Shown here: positions 178 to 12,290 of the stretch, in pieces
Numbering within the stretch: position 1 is the stretch's first letter
Layout of the letters: every line of letters begins with the position of its first letter
Origin: Promethearchaeota archaeon
GTDB taxonomy: Archaea; Asgardarchaeota; Lokiarchaeia; Sigynarchaeales; SOKP01
Assembly: GCA_016839845.1 (NCBI GenBank)
Contig: JAEOTL010000261.1
Location: 1-35,776 of the forward strand
Length of the DNA: 35,776 nucleotides
Direction: 5' to 3'
Notes under the pieces: model-generated
Told to the model about the DNA's origin: nothing
What the model saw: the letters and a program-made list of their open reading frames with translations, nothing else
Database searches by the model: none
Translations under genes and position numbers: made by a program

Positions 178-1857
178 GTGATCAATATCGCCGTAACCTT
201 TATGCGTAAACTAGAACTTGAACCTGAAACTTATGATGAAAAATTTACTGCTTTAACTAAGGGTGTTAATAATGAAGTTAAAGAGTGGATCATTGAACGA
301 ATTGGGACAAATAATTCCATTTTGGAAGTTGGATGTGGTACCGGTACACTCGCAACTAAAATGGCGTTAAAAGGTAATAATATCTTAGCAATTGATAAAA
401 ATTTTCAAATGATTAACACTGCAATGAAAAATTACCCCTCAGAGAAAGACCTTAATCTTATTTATCAAATGGGAACAATTAAAGACATAGCTATAGAAGA
501 TGAATCAAAAGACGCTATTGTTAGCACATTTATGCTTTCTGAGCTAAGATCGTTCGAGCAACAAATCTTTCTAAGAAAAGCATGGAAAATGCTTAAATCG
601 GGAGGGAAATTACTGCTTGTCGCGGAGTTTATACCTTCAGGATTCTGGAAATTAAGCTTTAAATTAAAAAGATGGTGGTATAGGAAAAAATTAAGAAGAC
701 TAAGACTCCCAACCACATCTGTTGTAAAGTGGTTTTTTAATTACTTAGCACCTATAGGATTTGATGTTGTGGAGGAAAGAAATTGGGGTCATGGTTCAAT
801 TAAAGCTCTTGAACTAGTAAAACGAGATATTGAAGAAGATAAAGAACCGGGATACTATTGTCCCTCACAGAGAAAATTCAAGGGATTTCTTTCACAAATG
901 CAAATCTATAGATGCATGTTTACAGGACAATCAGATCTCGTCCCTATTGAACCAGGGATTTATAGATCTGGTAAACCTGATGAGAAATCCCCTATCATAG
1001 TAACCGCTAATTATCTATTTACTTATATTAAAGTTATGAGGGCACTCAAAGACCTCGATGCATGGGTATTATGCGTGGATTCGAGGGGTATTAATGTTTG
1101 GTGTGCTGCGAGAGGAGATGATTTTGGAAATAAGCAATTAATTGAAGCAGTTGAAGCAACCGGGATTGATAAAATTACAACTCGAAAAACGTTGATTCTT
1201 CCCCAACTCGCAGCGGGGGGTGTTGCTGCTCCATTGATTAAAAGTGAATCCCCCTCATTTCCTTTTAATATCTTATTTGGGCCTGTGTGGGCAAAGTTCT
1301 TGCCAGAATTTATAAAAACGCGACCAGCAAAGAAACCAGACAAATGGAAACTTGCTAGATTTACATCATTTCACCGATTAAGAGCATTTATGACCCATAC
1401 AACTTTCTTACTGAGAAAAATCTTTCTATGGCCAACTCTTGCTTTGCTAATATTTCTGTTAGGATTGGGCTTGGTAACACCATTCTGGTTTGGTAAATTG
1501 TGGAGTATCGGTGAAATTTGGATGTGGATCATAATTGCTAACGGGTTAATAGCTTTTCTTTTTCCTTTGACGAAGTTTACGAGGAAGTTTATTATAAAAG
1601 GAATCTTTTTTGGAATATTGAATATCCTTTTGCTAAGTGGGATAACTTGGATACTTCATCAATCTTTTCTACTTATTCTATTGAATATATGTTTTTTCTT
1701 CTGGCTAGCATTTTTCTCTACAATGAGCTTTAGTGGATATTCTATGATTACTAGCCCTGCTGAGATTCAAGAAGAATATCCGACTTTCAGAAAAATTCAC
1801 CTCCCCATGCTCATCATCGGAATCATTCTTGCAGCTGTCGGACTTGTTTTATTTTAG
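178..1857 (+). CDS. hgcA: SAM-methyltransferase / HgcA corrinoid protein fusion
   Basis: This looks like two proteins in one. Residues about 1-215 are a class I SAM-dependent methyltransferase: motif I is LEVGCGTG at 49-56, the acidic residue ending strand 2 is D73, and a motif of the form SGGKLLLVAE sits near 141-150. Residues about 250-559 match HgcA, the corrinoid protein of mercury methylation: EPGIY near 258, VTANY at 275-279, the cap-helix motif NVWCA at 306-310 with the cobalt-ligating C309, LPQLAA at 341-346, then five predicted membrane segments at about 415-438, 447-465, 471-494, 497-521 and 541-559. HgcA proteins are usually near 340 residues, so 559 fits a fusion. The cap helix reads NVWCAARG where the canonical form is NVWCA(A/G)GK. 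The gene starts with GTG; an in-frame ATG lies at 202. hgcB follows 63 bases downstream. Family membership is firm. Whether it methylates mercury is inference, because HgcA-like paralogues with other roles exist. Confidence 0.85.
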   Translation: MINIAVTFMRKLELEPETYDEKFTALTKGVNNEVKEWIIERIGTNNSILEVGCGTGTLATKMALKGNNILAIDKNFQMINTAMKNYPSEKDLNLIYQMGTIKDIAIEDESKDAIVSTFMLSELRSFEQQIFLRKAWKMLKSGGKLLLVAEFIPSGFWKLSFKLKRWWYRKKLRRLRLPTTSVVKWFFNYLAPIGFDVVEERNWGHGSIKALELVKRDIEEDKEPGYYCPSQRKFKGFLSQMQIYRCMFTGQSDLVPIEPGIYRSGKPDEKSPIIVTANYLFTYIKVMRALKDLDAWVLCVDSRGINVWCAARGDDFGNKQLIEAVEATGIDKITTRKTLILPQLAAGGVAAPLIKSESPSFPFNILFGPVWAKFLPEFIKTRPAKKPDKWKLARFTSFHRLRAFMTHTTFLLRKIFLWPTLALLIFLLGLGLVTPFWFGKLWSIGEIWMWIIIANGLIAFLFPLTKFTRKFIIKGIFFGILNILLLSGITWILHQSFLLILLNICFFFWLAFFSTMSFSGYSMITSPAEIQEEYPTFRKIHLPMLIIGIILAAVGLVLF

Positions 1858-1920: not shown

Positions 1921-2226
1921 GTGCTTAAAATAACCTTAAAACCAGCATCGATAGGTATTACAATAAATCTCCCAAAAATATCAATATCTCCCGATCTCTG
2001 TACAGGATGTGGAGTTTGCGGTGAGGTGTGTCCATTCGGCATCCCTCAACCAGATAATAATGGAAAATTCGAAATTTTGGAACCTGAGAGATGTACCGAA
2101 TGTAGTGCTTGCAAGAGGAATTGTCCTGCTATGGCGATTCTTTTACAAGAACGTAAAGGATGTGGATGCCTATGGGATGCTCGAGCTCGTTTAAAAAATC
2201 CACAAGGCAACACTTGTTGTGGTTAA
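1921..2226 (+). CDS. hgcB: HgcB-type 2x[4Fe-4S] ferredoxin
   Basis: A 101-residue ferredoxin with two CxxCxxCxxxC clusters (C27/C30/C33/C37 and C58/C61/C64/C68), a GCGC at 80-83 and a vicinal cysteine pair C99-C100 one residue from the end. Two clusters plus an extra conserved cysteine and a C-terminal Cys-Cys are characteristic of HgcB, which donates electrons to reduce the corrinoid of HgcA and is thought to handle mercury thiolate. Its position directly after the HgcA-containing gene supports the call. It starts with GTG at 1921. The GGAT just before it is very close, so initiation signals are weak. An overlapping ORF in another frame (2009-2194) is a shadow. The gene converges with the nitroreductase gene, leaving only 35 bases between the two stops. 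Confidence 0.82.
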   Translation: MLKITLKPASIGITINLPKISISPDLCTGCGVCGEVCPFGIPQPDNNGKFEILEPERCTECSACKRNCPAMAILLQERKGCGCLWDARARLKNPQGNTCCG

Positions 2227-2261: not shown

Positions 2262-3071
2262 TTATTCTAATTCTTCTAATCCTCTAGTTTCCATTAGGGG
2301 TCGAGGGGGGATTCGATAAAACCTTACGGCAGGATATCCTATAATGATGACTCCCCATACTCTATCCTCGATGCCAAATAGCTCTTTCTTTGCTTCCTTT
2401 TTATTATTTAAAAACACATGCGCCATCCCAATCCAGCATGATCCTAATCCCAACGATTGAGCACTAAGCATCCCCTGCGTAAGAGCGATTGTGGAGTTCA
2501 TAGCATCAAATTCATAATCTGAATAAAGAATTATTAAATGTGGTGCTTTATAAAAAACAGGGTCTCTACCTCGTTCTCTCATGAGTTTTAAACCTTGCTT
2601 ATATCTCTCAGTTGTTGCTGGATCTGAGAGCATCTCATCAATGATAAGATCTGAAAGTGTTTTTATTTTTTCATCATCAGAAACTATAAGGCATTTCAAT
2701 CTGCGAATATTTCCCCCAGTAGCAGCATAACTCATGGTTGCAACAATCTTTTTCATAACTTCTCGTGGAACTTTTGTCGCTTTATACTGTCTTATAGATC
2801 TCTTCCCACTCATAAATTTATGCAATGTTTCATAGGGGATTAAATCATGAACTTTCGTGCCTTTCTCGAATTCAATTGTCTCTCCAAAATTTTTAAAAGA
2901 AATTGCATCAACGGGGCATTTCCCAATACAGTGTCCACACAAGTTACAGAAATTATAGGGGTCTTCAAATTTGACTCTCTCATTTTCCCTATCATTTCTT
3001 ATATAATAGCATGAATATAAGCAGTTTTTGCAATATGTGCATTTTTCATAATCAATCTCTAACATCGGCAT
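2262..3071 (-). CDS. Ferredoxin-nitroreductase fusion flavoprotein
   Basis: 269 residues. The N-terminal part carries two 4Fe-4S motifs (C11/C14/C17/C21 and C42/C45/C48/C52, the latter followed by proline). The rest is a nitroreductase-family FMN domain beginning with RSIRQY at 91-96 (the usual FMN phosphate contact) and ending with the GVIIIGYPA strand. Such proteins pass electrons from ferredoxin-type clusters to FMN and on to an unknown substrate; the substrate cannot be read from the sequence. The start at 3071 is supported by a strong Shine-Dalgarno (GGAAGGAG, 3077-3084 on the minus strand) five bases upstream. The gelsolin-domain gene ends 18 bases before it on the same strand, so the two probably form an operon. 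Confidence 0.85.
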   Translation of the reverse strand: MPMLEIDYEKCTYCKNCLYSCYYIRNDRENERVKFEDPYNFCNLCGHCIGKCPVDAISFKNFGETIEFEKGTKVHDLIPYETLHKFMSGKRSIRQYKATKVPREVMKKIVATMSYAATGGNIRRLKCLIVSDDEKIKTLSDLIIDEMLSDPATTERYKQGLKLMRERGRDPVFYKAPHLIILYSDYEFDAMNSTIALTQGMLSAQSLGLGSCWIGMAHVFLNNKKEAKKELFGIEDRVWGVIIIGYPAVRFYRIPPRPLMETRGLEELE

Positions 3072-3089: not shown

Positions 3090-3911
3090 TTAATCAAGAT
3101 AGTTTTTTTTGATTAGATGATCCATTTCCGCATTTAACCAGCATAATTCATCATAACTACAAGAGGATCGGAATACATCTTCTGCTTTTCTCTTAATATC
3201 TTCAATAGAAGGCATTTTGAGACTCATTTTCTGAATCTTTTCTGCTAGTATCCAGCATAATTCATCATAAGAATATTTCTTTAAGGAAAGATAATAAGCC
3301 GCTTCCCTAATCTGAGTTTTAAAATCTGATTCATCCTCTTGTTCGATATCTTCCTCTATATACGATTCCTCTTCTAATTCGACATCTTCCTTGATTTCAA
3401 CTCCTTCTGGTTTAGTATCAAGTCTAACGAAACTAGCTGCTTGAGCTGGCTTTTCTTCTTCTACATCAGTCCAAGGGCCTCTATAATCGTGAATTTGTTG
3501 TAGCCAATTTTTGATTTTTGTTTCAGGGCTATCTTCTCGTTTTTCAAGTGTACCATCGAGTCCTATTGATGCGATACTTTCTGGAGGTGTATCAAACACA
3601 AACTCAGGTCTTCTCTCTACACTCTTACCTGGAATCAAACCCTTCTTGAAGCTGTCCATCATAGATAAAAATGATCCATACTCTCTTTTTTCCTTCATGA
3701 TGAGAATTTTTGCAGATCCCCCACGCTCTTTATCAATTTTTCGTGCTATATTAGCTGTGATATCTTTCTTGGTTTGATCAACGCTAAATCCAACCCAAAT
3801 GTAGATTGTATTTTTTTCTTCATCATCCACAAGATACACATCTGTTTCTTCAAATCTTAAACGATCCAAGTTGACTAGTTCTCCTTGCTCCCCAATCTTA
3901 TATAATTGCAT
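3090..3911 (-). CDS. Gelsolin-like domain protein with C-terminal YDELCW repeats
   Basis: The N-terminal ~100 residues resemble one gelsolin repeat: a strand of the form VYLVDDE, then IYIWVG, then a helix and a KILIMKE strand. These proteins bind actin in eukaryotes, and Asgard archaea encode single-domain relatives acting on their own actins. A long acidic, disordered-looking linker follows (about residues 140-200, rich in E and D). The C-terminal ~75 residues contain two copies of a SYDELCW-x-x-AE motif 38 residues apart (near 217 and 255, numbered from the GTG start). I do not recognise that module. The start is ATG at 3911; a GTG three codons earlier (3920) is equally possible. It is the first gene of an apparent operon with the nitroreductase and is divergent from the cupin gene. 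The actin-related role is inferred from the domain. Confidence 0.7.
   Translation of the reverse strand: MQLYKIGEQGELVNLDRLRFEETDVYLVDDEEKNTIYIWVGFSVDQTKKDITANIARKIDKERGGSAKILIMKEKREYGSFLSMMDSFKKGLIPGKSVERRPEFVFDTPPESIASIGLDGTLEKREDSPETKIKNWLQQIHDYRGPWTDVEEEKPAQAASFVRLDTKPEGVEIKEDVELEEESYIEEDIEQEDESDFKTQIREAAYYLSLKKYSYDELCWILAEKIQKMSLKMPSIEDIKRKAEDVFRSSCSYDELCWLNAEMDHLIKKNYLD
3138..3270 (-). repeat. Two 19-base direct repeats inside the gelsolin-like gene
   Basis: The same 19 bases occur at 3138-3156 and 3252-3270, 114 bases (38 codons) apart and in the same frame. On the minus strand they encode Y-D-E-L-C-W. Identity at DNA level, including third codon positions, suggests a fairly recent internal duplication or selection on the module. 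Confidence 0.7.
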
Positions 3912-4025
3912 TCCACTCACTCATATGAAAATTCTTGTAATATAAAAATAAATACAATTTTAGTTTAAAAATGTTTAGAGATCTTCTGATATTTATACAG
4001 ACATCACTTTTGGAAACATGTTCGA

Positions 4026-11473: not shown

Positions 11474-11753
11474 GGTTAAAAGATTATATCTATATGAATC
11501 AAGAGAATCAAATCATCAATTTTCTTCTACTAATTATAAAAAAATAGCTCTTTTGTATCTTGGATAAATATTTTAAACTTATGGCATCTGACTTAAAAAC
11601 ATTGTTAATTGAGAGAAATTACACCATAGTCATCCTCAATTTAGGATTTATACCGAGTGTATGTAATCAGTTTAAGTAACAAAATATTTAATGATATATT
11701 TCCACCTTAATTTTAAAAGGCTAAAATTCTATAGCTATATTGACAGGGTTACT

Positions 11754-12290
11754 ATGGGAGCAAAGACTAATCTATTTAAGATATGTATTGTCGGCGATCA
11801 TGGAGTAGGGAAAAGTACTCTACTACATCAATATTTAGAAAGAAGATTTATTTCAAATGTTCAATCCACAATTGGTTCTAACTTTTTTGTAAAACGCGTG
11901 AAACTCCCAAATGTAAAGAATTATATCACTTTACAAATATGGGATTTAGCTGGTCAAGATCATTTTAGATGGGTTCGGCAAGCTTTTTATAAAGGAGCGA
12001 AGGGAATAGTCTATGTATTTGATTTATCTCGGAAAGATACTCGCGAACATATTGAAGTATGGAAAGAGGAAGTGGAAAGAGCAGCTGGTTTTCTCCCTAA
12101 TGTGTTGGTAGGAAATAAACTGGACTTAGTTAACTCTAGCGTAAAAAATACCCCCGAAGAAATTGCTAATGATATTATCCGTGCATTAAAATCATGCCTG
12201 TATACTGAAACAAGCGCCAAATTAGGTACCGGTGTTGATAATGTGTTCTTCAAATTAACTACGGAAATGAATAGGAGTTATAATCGATAA
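11754..12290 (+). CDS. Ras-like small GTPase
   Basis: With the start at ATG 11754 the protein is 178 residues, the normal small-GTPase size. All five G motifs are visible: P-loop GDHGVGKS at 14-21 (G1), the switch I threonine in QSTIG near 37-41 (G2), WDLAGQ at 63-68 (G3, with the catalytic glutamine), NKLD at 121-124 (G4) and TSAK at 153-156 (G5). Asgard archaea have many such Rab/Ras-type GTPases with likely roles in membrane or cytoskeleton control. An ATG at 11691 would add 21 residues that are not typical of the family, so I reject it. There is no C-terminal cysteine for prenylation; the end is NRSYNR. It is followed 54 bases later by an MBL hydrolase gene. Confidence 0.92.
   Translation: MGAKTNLFKICIVGDHGVGKSTLLHQYLERRFISNVQSTIGSNFFVKRVKLPNVKNYITLQIWDLAGQDHFRWVRQAFYKGAKGIVYVFDLSRKDTREHIEVWKEEVERAAGFLPNVLVGNKLDLVNSSVKNTPEEIANDIIRALKSCLYTETSAKLGTGVDNVFFKLTTEMNRSYNR

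Follow-up and report, generated by a model that had tools for sequence, protein, structure and literature searches.

A CpaM-type methyltransferase joined to an HgcA-like corrinoid protein in an Asgard archaeon

The mercury-methylation proteins HgcA and HgcB (NF040863 and NF040864) are among the closest described relatives of a two-gene system at the start of a 35,776-nucleotide stretch of DNA from a Promethearchaeota archaeon (contig JAEOTL010000261.1, analysed at full length and called the window below). HgcA has a corrinoid domain like that of the corrinoid iron-sulfur protein (CFeSP), an NVWC cap with a cysteine ligand and five predicted membrane helices, and HgcB is a 2[4Fe-4S] protein with Cys73 and a further cysteine pair; the window genes encode the equivalents of all of these. 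The window protein differs in that it adds an N-terminal S-adenosylmethionine (SAM) methyltransferase, carries a glycine in place of the cap lysine, scores under the curated cut-offs and falls in a separate clade.

The NCBI family HgcAB_like (NF043039), with its methyltransferase CpaM (NF043040), lies on the same side of the tree as the window protein and shares the CpaM linkage and the cap glycine. In HgcAB_like, however, HgcA and HgcB form one chain, CpaM usually has its own gene and the mercury-type HgcB cysteines are mostly missing, whereas in the window CpaM and HgcA form one chain and the separate HgcB has these cysteines. ArsM, which methylates arsenic directly and without a corrinoid, is likewise a class I SAM methyltransferase. 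The large subunit of CFeSP, from the Wood-Ljungdahl pathway, is served by a pterin methyl donor and has no membrane domain. Its corrinoid domain is homologous to that of the window protein, which matches CFeSP chains PDB 9fzy and 2h9a, but CFeSP is reported to lack the cap cysteine and to work with a methyltransferase of the TIM-barrel type (PMC7305189).

A CpaM-type and an HgcA-like half in one chain

The first gene of the window is a single stop-free frame of 559 codons with a GTG start, as read from the ORF translation. In its N-terminal half, Pfam Methyltransf_11 matches residues 49-146 (E-value 1.8e-14) and the NCBIfam CpaM model matches residues 7-211 with 136.9 bits, under its cut-off of 180; generic methyltransferase models match too. 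The domain shares 35% identity over 157 aa with the separate CpaM of a Bathyarchaeote (BLASTP) and is associated, within one chain, with an HgcA-like corrinoid protein. It is a CpaM homologue, in line with the link to CpaM drawn in the first-pass annotation of this DNA. The motif I glycines G52, G54 and G56 are kept at 99-100% of 78 CpaM domains.

In the C-terminal half, Pfam CdhD/CFeSP matches residues 238-346 (E-value 9.1e-14, 51.4 bits), the HgcA model residues 257-554 (171.7 bits, cut-off 275) and the HgcAB_like model residues 255-512 (168.0 bits, cut-off 285), HgcB being separate here. Model searches on the full protein, which the first-pass annotation had proposed, accordingly recover both a methyltransferase and an HgcA half, but at scores short of the NF043040 and NF040863 cut-offs. 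Chance resemblance was rejected on the model scores and the tree.

The cap reads NVWCAARGD (residues 306-314), with RG in place of the GK of the canonical motif. Using the numbering in PMC7305189 and a constant offset of 216 rather than an ND132 alignment, Cys309 corresponds to Cys93 of ND132 HgcA, and T276, T282 and V307 to the B12 contacts Thr60, Thr66 and Val91 (Ala153 was left unmapped). All four are invariant in 27 fused-family sequences; a wider set of 81 rows keeps V307 and C309 without exception and T276 and T282 at 90% or more. Five hydropathy segments follow residue 414 (415-433, 444-467, 471-489, 497-515 and 540-558), and an extra one at 483-501 overlaps two of them. Read from this crude profile, the protein would have five membrane helices, in agreement with HgcA and with the number given at first sight.

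The protein is HgcA-like and is not canonical HgcA: it scores under the curated cut-offs, has no GK in its cap and is separated from canonical HgcA by a branch with 100/100 support. It falls short of 275 bits, lacks the cap NVWCAAGK and lies outside the HgcA clade; it has the cap cysteine and corrinoid-contact positions, the five helices by hydropathy and a partner with the HgcB cysteines. The gene had been described as containing a complete HgcA, of which a complete HgcA-like protein with an NVWC cap survives, but HgcA proper does not.

The frame is followed, as also described before, by HgcB, here an HgcB-like ferredoxin (1921-2226) that scores 54.4 bits against NF040864 (cut-off 99). It has two CX2CX2CX3C motifs, a GCGC about 13 residues after the second and a terminal CC before the last Gly. 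Mutations in the mercury system reportedly show Cys73 to be essential and the tail pair to be jointly important (PMC7305189). We counted these cysteines in 51 separate Asgard HgcB proteins, one of which was dropped for unknown letters, taking as Cys73-like any Cys about 5-18 residues past the second cluster motif, a loose test. A Cys73-like residue and at least two further tail cysteines occur in 50/50, and CC stands within the last ten residues in 41/50. Canonical Desulfobacterota HgcB proteins have the Cys73-like residue in 62 of 63 cases and the tail cysteines in 60. Among one-chain forms, the Cys73-like residue was found in 0/16 from Asgard archaea, 3/6 from Desulfobacterota and 0/1 from Thermoproteota, and tail cysteines in 3/16 from Asgard archaea and 0/6 from Desulfobacterota.

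Recurrence of the fusion and its relation to the cap lysine

A database search with the window protein gave 596 homologues, the closest of which is 98% identical and comes from a Promethearchaeota archaeon. All 120 of the homologues listed (P0002-P0121) carry the NVWCAARG cap and match, with at least 166 bits, a CpaM profile built from loci of the fused and adjacent families; P0095 is without motif I, its start being missing or misread. Of the 57 loci L001-L057, which include one bacterial locus, 56 have cap and CpaM in a single frame; the remaining locus begins at a contig end. An assembly or frame error joining two genes, a concern raised with the fusion and natural for a draft metagenome, is refuted by this recurrence, and we assign it next to no probability. 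Three homologues (P0124, P0125 and P0142) have the ARG cap without the methyltransferase part although the longest of their contigs measure 8.5-35 kb. They are unexplained and could be unfused or broken copies.

A two-peptide scan of one genome per species returned 60 loci, in which the cap is partly selected for, NVWCAARG being a search peptide. They span Lokiarchaeota and their kin, Sigynarchaeota, Heimdallarchaeota, Thorarchaeota, two unnamed archaea, three Bathyarchaeota and one Desulfobacteraceae metagenome-assembled genome (MAG). In the Asgard loci a separate HgcB follows the fused frame wherever the contig is long enough. A Heimdall fusion of the window layout reaches 222-225 bits against NF043040, over the 180 cut-off. 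The three Bathyarchaeota encode CpaM (219 aa, 291-295 bits) as its own gene directly upstream of a one-chain HgcA-HgcB gene, and the Desulfobacteraceae MAG encodes a 629-residue CpaM-HgcA-HgcB single chain (L056:1409-3295; the same gene in L170, L226 and L288). The arrangements found are therefore CpaM-HgcA with separate HgcB, CpaM with one-chain HgcA-HgcB, the triple fusion, and CpaM with an HgcA that has no adjacent ferredoxin. Six Loki genomes (G011, G124, G127, G128, G133 and G138) have both the window-type fusion and a CpaM gene beside a one-chain HgcAB_like gene, and two genomes (G190 and G205) have the window-type fusion together with a triple fusion; this co-occurrence suggests that the types have two jobs.

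Some variants deserve mention in their own right. The Desulfobacteraceae genome with the triple fusion (G007), a gene for which contamination is a possible source, also has an HgcA with the cap NVWCAASK and no CpaM (L169). Asgard triple fusions of about 640-650 aa were seen in L081 (L229), L161 (L228) and L318, the last with the unusual cap NVWCSSCG, and one Loki MAG (G012) has two window-type CpaM-HgcA genes (L001 and L005).

We searched Asgard, Desulfobacterota and Thermoproteota genomes with the cap pattern G-x-N-[VIM]-W-C-A-[AG], leaving the following residues free. The pattern occurs in 72 of 227 Asgard genomes (74 matches), 86 of 297 Desulfobacterota genomes (91 matches) and 3 of 300 Thermoproteota genomes (3 matches); 168 matches were read, two were not HgcA-like, and 166 HgcA-like genes were retained. 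Where the eighth cap residue is lysine, 77 genes are without CpaM, none is with CpaM and three are undecided at contig ends. Where it is not, CpaM accompanies 80 of the 84 decided genes, with two undecided. Of these 80, 56 have CpaM fused to HgcA, HgcB being separate or beyond the contig end, 21 have it in an adjacent gene and three are triple fusions. The window layout is seen in 56 of the 74 Asgard pattern matches, and the survey for N-terminal methyltransferase fusions that had been called for is answered positively. The association gives a Fisher p of 1e-41, or 7e-9 minus the Asgard genes, in rows that are related by descent. CpaM profile scores are 143-313 in the positive loci, and nothing in the 81 negative loci scores above 45. 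Most Desulfobacterota loci were read with some 4-6 kb of flanking sequence at either end; 25 of the Asgard loci and one from Thermoproteota, all positive, had flanks of some 1.5 kb.

The four non-lysine caps without CpaM are L224 (Gly), L188 (Glu), and L197 and L198 (both Ala). L224 is a true HgcA by its model score (434 bits) and has glycine at the lysine position with no CpaM nearby, so a missing cap lysine is not in itself a mark of the CpaM branch.

The converse search, with NF043040 at an E-value of 1e-45 or lower, covered 121 Bathyarchaeote-class, 297 Desulfobacterota and 222 Asgard genomes. It finds high-scoring CpaM only, most window-type Loki fusions (132-146 bits) being below its threshold, and its loci partly overlap the 166-gene set. 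Of 51 CpaM places, 44 had sequence that was read, and an HgcA-like gene is fused or next door in 42; the other two are cut by contig ends. In one of the 42 (L312) the HgcA-like partner is cut and reaches just 35 bits. All 41 visible caps have Gly as their eighth residue. The one-chain partners belong to HgcAB_like, the six tested, which include two triple fusions, scoring 358-448 bits. The separate methyltransferases count as CpaM, the four tested exceeding the cut-off with 247-277 bits. Six weaker CpaM places were also read: two (L274 and L275) are beside HgcA-like genes with no ferredoxin among the listed neighbours, two are contig-cut and two are without HgcA. The statement in the first-pass annotation that CpaM genes occur next to HgcA-like genes is borne out by these data. 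How mercury methylators come by their methyl group is not simply accounted for by the fusion, because canonical HgcA, reported to use SAM in vitro, has no CpaM alongside in 77/77 decided cap-lysine loci.

On an unrooted tree of 84 rows, of which 63 are labelled, a single change accounts for CpaM presence, on a branch of length 2.3 with 100/100 support, and the cap lysine requires five. The association of CpaM and cap is fairly described as a single deep split that has been inherited faithfully ever since, and not as a large number of separate events. A single origin of the window-type fusion is not rejected (approximately unbiased test, p 0.507), and a mirror-tree comparison of the two domains gave r 0.90 over 52 rows (0 of 2000 permutations), as is expected from shared descent alone.

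Residue patterns differ between the two sides of the split. Both keep 18 positions fixed (at least 93%), including P267, N278, G304 and N-V-W-C-A-A. About 20-23 positions are fixed in the branch without CpaM and variable in the CpaM branch, including those at window positions 280 (K), 284 (D), 287 (R), 302 (T), 312 (G) and 313 (K). The reverse pattern is limited to two positions, G313 and K386. Another 51 HgcA-like database sequences, of mixed origin, all have K, D and R at the equivalents of 280, 284 and 287. These charged residues could serve SAM use in canonical HgcA, or contact between HgcA and HgcB; in a published model Gly96, next to the cap lysine, touches Arg58 of HgcB (PMC7305189).

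McDaniel et al. used cut-offs of E-value 1e-50 and score 300 and then removed sequences without G(I/V)NVWCAAGK (PMC7438021), the same or a similar cap-motif screen is reported in PMC5893877, and PMC7536318 reports NVWCA(A/G/S)GK. The window protein scores 171.7 bits with the NCBI HgcA model and lacks the cap motif. Motif-filtered mercury surveys omit the CpaM-linked branch, which is present in Asgard archaea, Bathyarchaeota and some Desulfobacterota and may have been overlooked in this way. NCBI already names the HgcAB_like and CpaM families, the latter as "corrinoid protein-associated methyltransferase", so the association is known to annotators. Our literature search, with subscription papers and preprints outside it, found no paper on CpaM, the Asgard fusion or the split in the HgcA family.

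A putative methyl relay and its acceptor

In the reading that we favour, to which we give about an even chance, the system would be a membrane-bound methyl relay from SAM to a corrinoid and on to a soft metal(loid), arsenic or mercury. By homology, the HgcB-like ferredoxin would reduce the corrinoid of the HgcA-like domain to Co(I). The fused CpaM domain would then bind SAM and use it to methylate Co(I), so that a methyl-corrinoid would form in which Cys309 is the lower ligand; this step is proposed because of the fusion, the strict gene linkage and the chemistry reported for HgcAB. Finally, the methyl group would move to a thiol-bound metal(loid) brought by the HgcB cysteines (the Cys73 equivalent and the C-terminal pair). 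SAM is reported to give its methyl group to HgcAB in vitro with formation of methyl-Co(III) (Zheng et al., PMC11588087), which agrees with the donor role named in the first-pass annotation. From the gene fusion and linkage, we infer that the fused domain may deliver the methyl group directly from SAM to cobalt.

As to the acceptor, at least one ars gene lies within 6.5 kb in 31 of the 57 loci L001-L057 (ArsR-type 27, ACR3-like 21, ArsC-like 6, ArsM 2); a separate clustering count gave ArsR in 32/58 loci. Against curated models, example neighbours score over the cut-off for ArsR (66.6 bits, cut-off 55) and ArsM (347 and 363, cut-off 263), just under it for ACR3 (257 and 282, cut-off 282.8) and under it for ArsC (115 and 131, cut-off 174). 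Within 3 kb, in loci over 6 kb long, ACR3 and ArsR accompany 13/40 and 24/40 Asgard window-type fusions and 3/78 and 9/78 canonical Desulfobacterota loci; because the profiles were trained on Asgard genes, these counts are biased, that of ArsR most strongly. One-chain loci with flanks (one Asgard adjacent, one Asgard triple and five Desulfobacterota adjacent) have ArsR in 1/7 and ACR3 in 0/7. A set of 14 Loki genomes, chosen knowing that some had a fusion-linked ACR3, contains 16 ACR3-like genes; in seven of the genomes such a gene adjoins the fusion, and in six of these it is the only copy. The ars setting of many Loki relatives points to arsenic as acceptor.

Several observations weigh against the relay or its arsenic form. 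Canonical HgcAB reportedly takes the SAM methyl group without such a domain, and CpaM is dispensable for that chemistry in general. Since HgcAB itself is reported to make methyl-Co(III) from SAM, CpaM could replace that activity with a faster or more specific one, could serve as a reactivator or could have some other role. The correlation of cap and CpaM rests on essentially one evolutionary split. The fusion-linked ACR3-like genes score 257-282 bits, all under the curated cut-off, and the over-cut-off copies in the same 14 genomes are all elsewhere; the linked pump may carry another load, and we give the relay and its arsenic form slightly less weight for this. ArsM near the fusion in 2/57 loci makes a second arsenic methylase less obviously needed there, and ars genes are reported next to canonical hgcAB too (PMC7438021). 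In the 13 loci nearest to the window (65-77% identity: L001-L009, L028, L033, L041 and L044), ACR3, ArsC and ArsM were found in 0/13 and ArsR in 2/13 within 6.5 kb, several having a Cys-bearing MarR-type regulator or a flavin reductase instead; the window itself begins just 177 bases upstream of the fusion gene. On gene context, arsenic is the leading candidate substrate for part of the family. Mercury is also a possible acceptor, and for the window protein itself arsenic does not appear to be singled out. The earlier caveat that mercury might not be what the protein methylates is strengthened by the ars genes found close to many relatives, with mercury kept among the candidates.

The boldest form of the relay holds that, in Asgard archaea, a Rossmann methyltransferase built into a membrane corrinoid protein drives B12-dependent methylation of arsenic and not mercury, the HgcA family having divided once into a SAM-direct and a CpaM-supplied branch; this would be one more way of methylating cobalamin with SAM, and we put it forward tentatively and think it doubtful. 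In a rather unlikely alternative, CpaM would not methylate the corrinoid and would act after or beside it, for example adding a further methyl group to the HgcA product or modifying another partner, while the HgcA-like domain took its methyl group from SAM itself or a pterin. Class I methyltransferases act on many substrates, and both ArsM in 2/57 neighbourhoods and the reported use of SAM by canonical HgcAB without CpaM (PMC11588087) would fit; but the linkage to HgcA-like genes in 42/44 loci, in every fusion order, and variation of the CpaM clade at the 20-23 positions fixed in canonical proteins (the equivalents of the cap Lys, Lys280, Asp284 and Arg287 among them) fit better with CpaM having taken over methyl donation.

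We consider it unlikely that the system does no more than methylate mercury, as an Asgard HgcAB that carries an additional domain and whose product is methylmercury. The cap Cys is kept, and the Cys73-like and tail cysteines of all 50 HgcB proteins are those reported to be needed for mercury methylation (PMC7305189), but HgcA and HgcB cut-offs are missed, the cap GK is replaced, the clade is deep and separate, and ars genes lie near 31/57 relatives. Moreover, Methanococcoides methylutens and Pyrococcus furiosus, both of which have fused hgcAB, are reported to have made no methylmercury above controls (PMC5893877); this form resembles the one-chain sister group, the organisms' own genes not having been compared. 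The relay would add a candidate pathway, encoded close to arsenic genes, in which a corrinoid methylates metal(loid)s. With a SAM methyltransferase joined to HgcA in one branch and charged residues in its place in the sister branch, the way HgcAB uses SAM, for which a word search of the text of PMC11588087 (2024) shows no named binding site, becomes testable by comparison.

A small protein with a CAC motif (106 aa; L015:3260-3577 and relatives) is encoded just downstream of HgcB in 18/58 loci. No family was found for it, the best PDB match having an E-value of 0.33, and it is a possible metallochaperone.

Features of the window

Table 1. Positions of the fusion gene, its parts and other genes in the window.
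Feature	Positions	Strand	Basis
CpaM-HgcA fusion gene, 559 aa	178-1857	+	One open frame; homologues
CpaM-type class I SAM methyltransferase domain, residues 7-211	196-810	+	NF043040, 136.9 bits; BLASTP
SAM-binding motif I EVGCGTG, residues 50-56	325-345	+	Translation; family conservation
Linker between halves, residues 212-256	811-945	+	Gap between NCBIfam model matches
Corrinoid-binding domain of CFeSP/HgcA type, about residues 257-395, end approximate	946-1362	+	CdhD; HgcA model; PDB CFeSP chains
Cap-helix motif NVWCAARG, residues 306-313	1093-1116	+	Translation; numbering reported in PMC7305189
Membrane domain, five predicted helices, residues 415-558	1420-1851	+	Hydropathy only
HgcB-like 2[4Fe-4S] ferredoxin, 101 aa	1921-2226	+	NF040864, 54.4 bits; translation
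C-terminal Cys-Cys pair of HgcB-like protein	2215-2220	+	Translation; family counts
Nitroreductase with N-terminal ferredoxin	2262-3071	-	
276-aa protein	3090-3920	-	
Ras-family small GTPase	11691-12290	+	Pfam Ras, 1.8e-40

The nitroreductase gene is directly downstream of the HgcB-like gene and convergent with it. The 276-aa protein has no Pfam match and is conserved close to the fusion in 9/58 loci, the window included; part of it resembles, by eye, what we take to be gelsolin repeats. The small GTPase is in keeping with an Asgard genome.
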